A DNA stretch of 64,000 nucleotides from Candidatus Obscuribacterales bacterium (GTDB lineage: Bacteria; Cyanobacteriota; Vampirovibrionia; Obscuribacterales; Obscuribacteraceae), in assembly GCA_019747875.1 (NCBI GenBank), contig JAIEQI010000006.1:88321-152320 (forward strand). The letters run 5' to 3'. Below, in pieces: positions 1,038-47,891 of this stretch (positions are counted from its first letter, which is position 1; every line of letters begins with the position of its first letter). The notes under the pieces were generated by a model. The model did no database searches and was not told the DNA's origin. It saw nothing but the letters and a program-made list of their open reading frames with translations. The position numbers and the translations under genes were made by a program.

Positions 1038-4000
1038 TTATCTGTAGATGTCTGGATATGCGAGGCTGTGGTATTGGTGTCTGGATTTGTTGTTGTTTTG
1101 GTTCCAGAACGATTCCCATGTACCATTCTTTGAATCACGCTGTTGTTCGCGAGCTAGTTGGGCATTACTGCGCGGATTGAGGTAGCGTTCCATTCCCACC
1201 AGCGTTCCGAGTTGCAGTTTGCCAATCTCGTAAGGATTGAGATTGCGGGCTCTGTCTGCAGGAGCGGTAGTGAGAACCTCGTTTAGAATCATGTTCTCTT
1301 TGTTGACGGCAGCTTGTACTCCGCGCCCTTGCTGACGCAATGCTTTCGCTGGAACTACGCCCATTTCGCCTTTGCCATTGTTAACGAGTGCGCCTAGTTT
1401 GCGGCTTTTCTCAGTGACAAGGGTCAAAGTTCCGGGGGAGATGTTGGCGAAGTCATCCATGTGATTAGAAATGATCACGTCAGCATTTGTGTCTTTCAGT
1501 GCTGCTGCCAGTCCGGTCATGCTCTGCGCGCTTGGATTGGTTTTGTAGAGTTCTTCCTGGTTAACGTGGATCGGGACTCCACCTGCGTATTCGACCATCT
1601 CAGCAAGGATGTTGTTATTCTGGCGGTTGAAGTCGTATTCGCTCATTCCTTTCGGATTTTGTGGAGTTTTGCTCCAATCATAAGCACCAAATCCAGGGCT
1701 TGGCGATCCGTGATAAGGATCGTGACCGGCGTTAAGTGCGATGCGTTTTCCATCCAAAGCACCTTTGCCATTTTTGCTTCCAACCAAATCTGGGTTGGTC
1801 GACATGAGTGCCGCAGCCACTGATTTCATTTCGAAGCGATGTCTAAGCAGCTCTTGTGCACGCGGATGTTTTGCGTCGTGGATAATGCGATCTTGAAGTA
1901 CTTTCTTGTCTTCGCTTAATGCACCATAGCTGCGAGCTTTTTCAAGTGCTCTTGCTTCTTGCGCTTTGAAATAGTTCTCGGCTTTTTGTGCGTTCTCTTG
2001 TAGTTTGGCTGTGTGCAATCCGAATGGATTGTATGCGAAATCGCTTTGCGCCTCAACGTTCTTTTGGTATGCGTTGCGGTTATAGCGGGCAAGATGCAGA
2101 TCGCGTTGCAGATCCGCCGGCAAGTCTTTTAACAAAGACTCAGGCAATTCGGATGCCGGTGTTCCCTTTCTCAAGGCCGCTTCGATGCGAGCCATTTGCT
2201 GCTTTTGTCTTTCAAGTCCCGCTTTATCGCTTTCCGCTTGTTTGAGAGTGTCCTGAATAACCTTGTTCGCTTCAGGGCTGCCAGGCTTCAACTTGTCGGA
2301 CAACTCGCGATATTTGTCAGAGTCTTTTTGCATATCTTCGCGAATTTTTGCCAGTTCAGATTCAGGACGATCCGTCCGTCTGTATCCGACGTTATCGTCC
2401 GGTTTTGGAATGTAAGCTTTGTCCGTGATTGTGCGACCGACGTTAGACTCATTCGCTTTCTCCAGGACATCTCTTTGAGATGCTACGTCTTTGATTCGAT
2501 CGGTGATCTCTTTTTTGATACCTTCGACATCCTTTGCTTTTGGTTTCTCGTTTAGAGCAACCGCGTCAATACGGAATCTTGCACCTTTATCTGTTGGGTC
2601 TATTCCAAGTTCTTTTGCAGCTGCGGCGTTAATGCCGATATCGTCTTTCGTTCCGCGACCATTTCTAAGCTGTCCTGCAATGAATGGAACTCTCTTTTCT
2701 TGACCGTCGGCCCCAATTCTGGTGAGCACACCCATGGTGCCCGGTGCCATCCCTGGGACGACAGCAACAGGCATGTCTTTCGGCGTGTTTGCTGGTTCTT
2801 TCAGCGTTGTTGTTGAGAGAACTTTTGCGCCGGTGACTACTTTGTGTTTGTCTGAGTTATCAGCGAGTTTGAGAATCTTGAGGTTGTCCTTAAGCTCTCC
2901 TGGTTGGAGACCGGCGGCCGCTCCTTTCCCGCAGTCAGGGCAGGAGGCTCCGTGGTCGTGTCTGTGATCTTCAACAGGCTTTGGTGCTTCTTTGGGAGCC
3001 TCTTTTGGAAGATCTTTTCCTGGTTCTTTCGGATTCCCAGGTTCTGGTTTGTCTTTAGCAGGATCTTGTTGCGGTTTGTCCTTTGCAGGATCTTGCTGTG
3101 GGGTGTCCTTGGCCGGATCCTGTTGAGGCTTGTCTTTACCAGGATCTTGCGGTTTGTCTCTTGCCGGATCTTGTTGCGGTTTGTCCTTGGCCGGATCTTG
3201 CTGAGGTTTGTCCTTGGCCGGATCTTGCTGAGGTTTGTCCTTGGCCGGATCTTGCTGAGGTTTGTCCTTGGCCGGATCTTGCTGAGGTTTGTCCTTTGCC
3301 GGATCTTGCTGAGGTTTGTCCTTGGCTGGATCTTGTTGTGGTGTGTCTTTGGCCGGATCTTGTTGTGGTTTGTCCTTGGCTGGATCTTGTTGTGGTGTGT
3401 CTTTGGCCGGATCTTGTTGTGGTTTGTCCTTGGCCGGATCTTGTTGTGGTGTGTCTTTGGCCGGATCTTGTTGTGGTTTGTCCTTACCAGGATCCTGTTG
3501 AGGTTTGTCCTTAGCGGGATCTTGTTGAGGTTTGTCCTTGGCCGGATCTTGTTGTGGTTTGTCGTTTGCTGGATCTTTCTGCTCCGGCTTCGGAACTTCT
3601 TTCGACGGCTCCTTACCTCCTTCCGGCTTATCTTTTGCCGGTTCATTCATTTTGAATTTGTTGGCGATTTCGCCTTTCAGTTTCTCAATTCCATCATTGT
3701 TGAGACCCTGGCGTCCGAAGCTCTTGTTACCGATGTTATCGATGAATTTCTTCGCTTCTTCTGCATTCTTCGGCAACAGCATGTCTGTTTGTTTGAGCGA
3801 ATTGACCGATTGACCTTGCTCTTTGCGGAGTCCTTTGGCTCCGGAGATCAATGCCTTGGTTTCGTTCTCAGTCAGATTTCTGCCAAGCAATTCTTTCATC
3901 GCCGCTTTCATCGGCTGATAGTATCCCTGACCGCGTTTCGGATGAGCTTTGTCTTCGACAGATTTCGGCAATTCGAAGTTCGGCTTCTCAGCATCGCCTT

Positions 4001-39493: not shown

Positions 39494-39656
39494 ATCTGGT
39501 CGTCTCAGTAGCGGTGAGAGGGGCGAATACCAGATCGTTTAAGTAGCGGAGGAGGTGAGAGGGGCGATAGCCCAGCGAACCTCCGGAGCGTTTAAAAAGG
39601 TAGCGGAGGAGGTGAGAGGGGCGATAGCCCAGCGAACCTCCGGAGCGTTTAAAAAG
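39494..39656 (+). repeat. Tandem structured repeat: one divergent copy plus two identical 57-bp copies
   Basis: Copies 39543-39599 and 39600-39656: GTAGCGGAGGAGGTGAGAGGGGCGATAGCCCAGCGAACCTCCGGAGCGTTTAAAAAG; divergent copy about 39494-39542 with its own ATCTGGT/ACCAGAT stem. Confidence 0.9.
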
Positions 39657-40073: not shown

Positions 40074-41003
40074 CTACGCGATCGCTAGCGCATTGCGCGC
40101 TGCTTTCTTCAGATGTTCACGCAGGGAGGAAATCCATTGTTGCAATTGCTCAGTAGTTACTTCAGTGCCATCTGTTGCTTCATGTTTGGCAAGGCACTCG
40201 TAAAGGCGCCGTGCCGAATCAAGGTAACGCACCGAGAGTGAATCAATTGTCGCGACCTGCTGTTCAGTCTGGCGTCCAGTCGACAGCGTTATCAGCTTGT
40301 TTTGCGCACGACTGAGTGCCATCACAAAAAGACCTTGTTGCCATTCTTCGCAGTTATTCAGCACTACGCGAATCATGAATTTGTCCGCTAATGATTTTTC
40401 TTCTCGGACTTCTTGATCTAAATCTGTTTGAATTTTCTTACGGCGCATTTTGAATTGTCCGCCCCAGATAGAGGGTTTTAAATCTTCTGCTAGCATCGGA
40501 GATTCAACTAATTGCGAGCCAAAAAGCTTGCATGCGATGCAAGTGTGCTCTTCAATTTGTTCGAACAGTCGTTGATCGTTATCTCCAAAGCGAGCAATCA
40601 ACTCCTGCAAATATATGCCACCATCGTTGCGAGGTTCGCCTAAGCGGATGCAGGCTTGGTCGCGATTGAAAGAATCGCAGGAAAATCCAGGTCCTAGCGT
40701 GTCTTTCAGTACTGATTCGACCTGACGTCTCAAAAGATTTTTGAAGTTGGACCCGGAGATATACGGCGTTCCGGAAAGGTCTCGCAGCACATATAAATCA
40801 GGTGGATTTGGTCTGCTTTCACCTTGTTGTTCTATGCGCGCTCCAGATTTGCAATGGAGGAATCCAGTGAGAACCATTCGCGATTGGAATCGGACAGTCA
40901 TGTTTTCTCCGGAGCGTCGAGGTGTGGGGTAGCGATCTGGCAGAAAGAAATTGGCCGGTAAGCCAAAATTTGGTACGCGGAACTGGGAGTCCAGCAGAGT
41001 CAA
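40074..41003 (-). CDS. Stand-alone RAMP-superfamily (Csm3/Cmr4/Csx7-like) protein
   Basis: LTGFLHCKSGARIEQ, YVLRDLSGTPYISGSNFKNLLRRQVESVL (RAMP PYIPGSSLKGxLR-like), HTCIACKLFGSQ (CxxCxLFG). Confidence 0.75.
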   Translation of the reverse strand: MTLLDSQFRVPNFGLPANFFLPDRYPTPRRSGENMTVRFQSRMVLTGFLHCKSGARIEQQGESRPNPPDLYVLRDLSGTPYISGSNFKNLLRRQVESVLKDTLGPGFSCDSFNRDQACIRLGEPRNDGGIYLQELIARFGDNDQRLFEQIEEHTCIACKLFGSQLVESPMLAEDLKPSIWGGQFKMRRKKIQTDLDQEVREEKSLADKFMIRVVLNNCEEWQQGLFVMALSRAQNKLITLSTGRQTEQQVATIDSLSVRYLDSARRLYECLAKHEATDGTEVTTEQLQQWISSLREHLKKAARNALAIA

Positions 41004-41346
41004 ACAACGTCTGCGCTGAACGGTATCAGTTATGGTGCCAACAAATTTTTCTTTGAAGTTATGACAGTATACACATTTAATCTATGACAAGATCGGGGAA
41101 GTCCTCGAATACTCCCTTAAATCTTGCGCTTGACAATACCCTTTGAGCAGCTCCTTGTTAGAACTCAAAAGAGGCGAGCCATTTCTGACTCACCTCCTGG
41201 TTTTGCTTCGGATAAATAGGTTCAATACTCGGGTAGTCTGTCGGCTATCGCCGGTCCTTACCCGTCCGATTTTGCTTCACGAACGCGCTCTGAGAAATCA
41301 TCGCGACATCGAGCCGCGCTGAACGCGCTTCGAAAAGTCTAACTGA

Positions 41347-47330: not shown

Positions 47331-47891
47331 CTAGCTTGTCTGCGGTTTGTTTTCCAGTCGATCAATGCGAATTTCGAGCTGCTCAAACTTGTTGTCCAAT
47401 TTTTCTTCCAAGTGAGAGTAAGAGGTAGTCATGCCATCCATGATTGTTGTAATTGCATCCATCAGGTCTTTATGCTGCCTTTCGCCTTGGATTCTCATTT
47501 CATCTCTTAGCGAAGTATCGACTGTTTCAAGCTTTAGTTCGACTGTTTCAAGCTTTAGTTCGACTGTTTCAAGCTTTTGTTCAACTGTCTCAAGCTTTTG
47601 TTCAACTGTCTCAAGCTTTTGTTCTACTGTCTCAAGCTTTTGTTCAACTGTCAGTTCAACTGTCTCAAGCTTTTGTTCTACTGTATCCAACCTTTGTCCA
47701 ACTGTTTCCAGTGTTTGTTCAACGGTTCCCAGTCTCTGTCCAATGCGATCTTGACCTTGTTGGAGTTCATCGAAACGTGTTGATTGACGAATCATGTGTT
47801 GATCAAGAACTTCAGCTCTGGCGTTGAAATAGGCAAGTCCGTGTTTTACTTCCAAACTCATGGCCTTTAGTTCTGCTTCTGTAATGTTCAT
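47331..47891 (-). CDS. Coiled-coil protein built of exact heptads (LETVEQK)n
   Basis: RBS TAGGAGGCTACCT-ATG at 47891; 21-bp tandem repeats; ORF track start is 47957. Confidence 0.7.
   Translation of the reverse strand: MNITEAELKAMSLEVKHGLAYFNARAEVLDQHMIRQSTRFDELQQGQDRIGQRLGTVEQTLETVGQRLDTVEQKLETVELTVEQKLETVEQKLETVEQKLETVEQKLETVELKLETVELKLETVDTSLRDEMRIQGERQHKDLMDAITTIMDGMTTSYSHLEEKLDNKFEQLEIRIDRLENKPQTS
47505..47745 (-). repeat. 21-bp tandem repeat encoding heptads
   Basis: Repeated CAAGCTTTTGTTCAACTGTCT-type units on the plus strand. Confidence 0.9.

Follow-up and report, generated by a model that had tools for sequence, protein, structure and literature searches.

A solitary Csx7-like RAMP gene beside a sigma factor gene in Obscuribacterales, a candidate CRISPR-independent RNA-binding protein

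The window, that is, the whole stretch of 64,000 nucleotides which was analysed, comes from Candidatus Obscuribacterales, bacteria akin to cyanobacteria, and carries a real open reading frame on the minus strand at 40074-41003, and this frame contains the motifs quoted in an earlier note made from the sequence. The strand and the stop side given there stand, but the start very probably does not. An SD-like GGAGA lies just 5' of ATG 40901, the six orthologs described below align from that methionine onward, and beyond it, towards TTG 41003, the frame shows no conservation. Hence, we take the true start to be very probably ATG 40901, which gives a protein of 275 aa instead of the 309-aa ORF beginning at TTG 41003. 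The features of the locus are the following:

41066..41075 (-): TGTGTATACT, promoter-like (-10) box, found unchanged before all six orthologs
40902..41003 (-): in-frame upstream extension to TTG 41003, frame unconserved among orthologs, probably an untranslated leader
40074..40901 (-): lone Csx7-like RAMP gene, ATG start, 275 aa, from profile matches and the ortholog alignment
40797..40799 (-): Asp35 codon (PPD-LYVLRD), equivalent in alignments to the target-RNA-cleaving Asp of Csm3 (D33, S. thermophilus)
40677..40679 (-): codon of Cys75, first of four Cys (75, 84, 121, 124) invariant in alignments
40530..40541 (-): C121-x-x-C124 within CIACKLFGS, from alignments
40377..40457 (-): counterpart of the Csx7 thumb (residues 149-175), shortened, conserved thumb motif gone
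40248..40295 (-): site of the glycine-rich loop of RAMPs, where STGRQTEQQ replaces the GGGRSRGLG of Csx7

The earlier note had taken the product for a RAMP protein resembling Csm3, Cmr4 or Csx7, and had allowed that profiles might reveal no such similarity. They do reveal it: the protein scores 24.2 bits against PF03787 (Pfam RAMPs; range 24.2-24.7), over the gathering score of 22.1, and it matches TIGR02581 (NCBIfam Csx7) with E=1.2e-16 and 61.6 bits, which does not reach the equivalog cut-off of 108.05 bits, as well as the PADLOC Csm3 family PDLC01296 with E=2.8e-15. PF03787 and TIGR02581 are each matched separately by all six orthologs, and the similarity to RAMPs, judged by sequence profiles, is far above chance. 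Among the three families named it is the Csx7 branch that fits. Aligned by hhalign with 12 cyanobacterial Csx7-type relatives, the orthologs match over their full length (252 columns, E=4.4e-25, prob 99.6), whereas the profile alignment with the resident Csm3 proteins covers 80 N-terminal columns only (E 9e-7). Hence, we concluded from these alignments that the lone protein is a divergent homolog of Csx7, a Cas7 paralog. Csx7 (TIGR02581, cas_cyan_RAMP) is the Cas7 paralog of cyanobacterial type III-D, not of III-A. In a sample of 297 genomes of the phylum the next relatives have 28-38% identity, and most of them adjoin a further RAMP or other type III-type genes; on our reading of these neighbourhoods, they sit in cyanobacterial type III-D loci.

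With Csx7 the protein shares the palm motif, the position of the catalytic Asp and the C-terminal tail, besides the full-length homology. The palm loop and helix, PDLYVLRDLSGTPYISGSNFKNLLRR, are retained, Asp35 falling where Csm3 has its cleavage Asp, on which this position is anchored; in S. thermophilus Csm3, D33 is the residue that cleaves the target RNA (PMC5965380). The Asp is kept in five of the six orthologs and is Glu in the sixth, that of genome G319. Two elements of Csx7 are gone, namely the motif QYQERDG-IDRDTET-GKLYDF, which, lying between the palm strands, is taken to be the thumb, and the loop GGGRSRGLG; each is invariant or nearly so in Csx7. At the loop the aligned orthologs have STGRQTEQQ or CGGMQQQA; for the protein of the window, the earlier note had already seen the replacement. 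Such a loop is also eroded in type I Cas7 (PMC3150331); since its loss is known in other RAMPs, the assignment to the superfamily rests on profile homology. Conversely, the four Cys, which are invariant in 6/6 orthologs and form a probable zinc site, are missing from the 12 aligned cyanobacterial Csx7. All four do align with the Cas7 paralog of Synechocystis type III-D (PDB 8bmw chain H), the best single-sequence match in PDB, although the similarity is weak (E 0.0067, profile 1.3e-4) and that chain is a subunit of a complex of several Cas7. With Csm3 of type III-A (PDB 6muu and the resident Csm3) the RRM palm and the Asp loop align, but the match is limited to the N-terminal third and Csm3 keeps both thumb and glycine-rich loop. 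An AlphaFold2 model built from the sequences of the window and of contig relative L040 only had a pLDDT of 35.

All four genomes searched in the same genus have an ortholog, as do both in the sister genus g132, while none was found in the other 44 searched genomes of the family, even by profile search. When the profile was run on 392 genomes of the class, these six alone gave strong matches. No relatives of the lone gene were found in the plasmid, phage and viral collections searched, and a single close one, L040, was found in the contig collection. The comparison of synteny proposed in the earlier note was informative: the carriers share a neighbourhood of an rpoD-like sigma gene, pgi, DUF488 and a gene of 145 aa, the sigma gene adjoining in 5/6 (the contig of G318 shows the side with pgi, DUF488 and the 145-aa gene but not the sigma gene), and no cas gene was found in any of the six ortholog neighbourhoods. 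Most other genera of the family have the sigma gene and the 145-aa gene as immediate, convergent neighbours and no RAMP there; therefore the RAMP gene looks inserted between the two. In a tree of the sigma proteins, which covers the five carriers with an available sigma protein and whose root is not established, the RAMP carriers form one clade (support 97/93). This is consistent with a single acquisition of the lone gene.

We looked for sequences common to the six upstream regions. The sole common 10-mer is TGTGTATACT, which contains a -10-like TATACT and stands 99-174 nt before the start; in a shuffle control on three of the sequences, a common 8-mer was obtained in 0/500 cases. That this box is common to all six argues for a promoter of the gene's own and against read-through from the sigma gene. 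An operon with the sigma gene is likewise disfavoured, as the intervening genes vary among genomes and the conserved box precedes the RAMP gene. Between the window and genome G320, the lone gene has a dN of 0.050 and a near-saturated dS, with a ratio of about 0.02; for the same pair of genomes dN is higher in pgi (0.087), Csm3 (0.090), Csm5 (0.214) and Cas6 (0.252). Selection on the lone gene is strongly purifying, and hence we rejected a pseudogene. Between genera the protein has 37% identity, against 63% for pgi, a fast divergence with which a defence role or relaxed constraint would agree as well.

The earlier note had seen no cas genes in the 64-kb window, which is right, but the absence from the organism that this implied does not hold. 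On its contig C43 the window's genome carries a type III-A locus (L029, 6876-12760) with Cas6, Csm5, Csm4, Csm3, Csm2 and one end of a Cas10, which the contig border interrupts; the gluconokinase side of the locus lies on contig C85. The same conserved gluconokinase site is occupied by III-A in G320, G318 and G322 (L107, L108, L111), and all four genomes carry the lone gene (families were assigned with the proteins of G320 and G322). The genome-wide search thus found a type III system, but one with its own complete Csm2-Csm5 and Cas6. Its Cas10 is without GGDD in 4/4 copies and without an HD domain in the three copies of genus g1. Cas1 was not found in the window's genome or in G320, and a crude repeat check near the III-A loci showed no CRISPR array beside them. 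Further type III loci, with Cas1 and with Cas10d-like and Cas10b-like proteins, occur in two of the carriers (L109, L110; G318:C574, G322:C107). In G319 (a draft of about 14 contigs) we found neither another RAMP nor Cas1, and no Cas10 match exceeded the cut-off; III-A is absent from the gluconokinase site, where different genes come next. As G319 keeps the lone gene with no III-A detected, the lone gene persists without III-A, and the two do not constantly co-occur. III-A was probably present in the common ancestor of the carriers too, so that the lone gene may be functionally tied to it.

The explanation towards which we lean, with some confidence, is that a Cas7 of the Csx7 kind was acquired once and was kept as a single-copy, CRISPR-independent chromosomal gene, whose product would work as a free-standing binder of RNA and may be a ribonuclease. 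The acquisition, with a type III-D-like locus as the probable source, would date to the ancestor shared by this genus and its sister genus, and the gene would have stayed beside the rpoD-like sigma gene since then. The retained RRM palm (helix PYISGSNFKNLLR) and the Cys cluster would bind RNA, the protein acting as a monomer or small oligomer, while the glycine-rich loop and the thumb motif, which Cas7 subunits use for stacking along crRNA, have been lost. In Cas7 proteins the thumb touches the neighbouring subunit and puts a kink into the crRNA at each sixth base (PMC5965380); with the loss of its motif, the formation of a filament on crRNA appears unlikely. The bound RNA may be cut through Asp35, or the protein may just as well bind and regulate RNA without cutting it. 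The RNase effector activity put forward in the earlier note is inferred from one retained Asp only; since this residue is Glu in G319, catalysis is not assured, and the protein is perhaps a metal-dependent RNase. The domestication put forward there fares better: it fits the syntenic vertical inheritance, the purifying selection and the retention in G319, where no other RAMP was detected. Stable retention even in a relative with no other detected CRISPR effector protein, together with the apparent promoter of its own, suggests that the gene has been recruited to a new function involving RNA. That this domestication is complete, a single Cas7 subunit having become a lineage-fixed, housekeeping-like regulator which binds or cleaves RNA without crRNA, arrays or other Cas proteins, seems to us about an even bet.

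The main rival is that the protein works in trans with the resident III-A, as an additional subunit or as a regulator, joining Csm2-5 and Cas6 and changing how crRNA is loaded or the target is cleaved. Four genomes have both III-A and the lone gene, few RAMPs occur elsewhere in the family, and the system is unusual, its Cas10 lacking GGDD in all four and HD in the three copies of genus g1; yet this system is already supplied with its own subunits, Csx7 belongs to III-D, and G319 carries the lone gene without III-A, all of which makes us consider such a partnership improbable. Slightly less probable still would be a stand-alone, guide-independent RNase defending the cell against phage or plasmid transcripts. 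Its immune ancestry, the catalytic Asp kept in 5/6 and the rapid divergence among genera would suit such a role, but the chromosomal site is fixed, with neither mobility nor defence-island neighbours, change within genera is slow and housekeeping-like, and the Asp has become Glu in G319. Least of all do we believe in a decaying, functionless leftover of a lost III-D locus: partner genes are absent and key loops are lost, as would be expected of such a remnant, but the ORF is intact in six genomes, dN lies far below dS and the promoter box is retained.

A literature search for lone, orphan or standalone RAMP or Cas7 proteins yielded no comparable lone Cas7. The known exapted CRISPR parts are mostly multi-gene modules, such as type IV, CAST, HRAMP and an I-E derivative of Streptomyces (PMC8730458). 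HRAMP and ARAMP, the exapted Cas5/Cas7 modules of haloarchaea and Asgard archaea, resemble the CRISPR-independent gene that we favour in that their Cas7 homologs derive from CRISPR, are limited to a single lineage and come without a typical CRISPR system, but they are modules of several genes with Cas5 and nucleases (PMC8730458), whereas a single gene lies here by housekeeping genes; at the lone gene we found no HRAMP-like neighbours (Cas5 homolog, nucleases), only the sigma factor, the 145-aa gene, pgi and DUF488. A lone, vertically kept descendant of Cas7 persisting without III-A would, if true, reveal what a CRISPR backbone protein's RRM core is capable of alone. It also offers a small protein for a direct test of crRNA-free binding or cleavage of RNA by Cas7.

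The earlier note had further linked the gene to an adjacent structured repeat, and this link fails. At 39543-39656 the window has two 57-bp structured units, which fold strongly (z -4.6 for one unit). Both are members of a dispersed family: with 3 mismatches allowed, the window's genome has at least 25 copies and G320 has 5 (L122-L131). None was found in 28 other searched genomes, three other carriers included, nor at the orthologous locus of G320. We therefore rejected the repeat as a partner RNA of the lone gene. The element has no Rfam match, and its outer stem varies in pairs: GGAGGT/ACCTCC, GGAGTT/AACTCC, GGAGCT/AGCTCC and GGAGAT/ATCTCC. Elsewhere in the window, tandem repeats which are not CRISPR-like lie at 3046-3577 (27 bp) and 47521-47743 (21 bp), and their periods are divisible by three.
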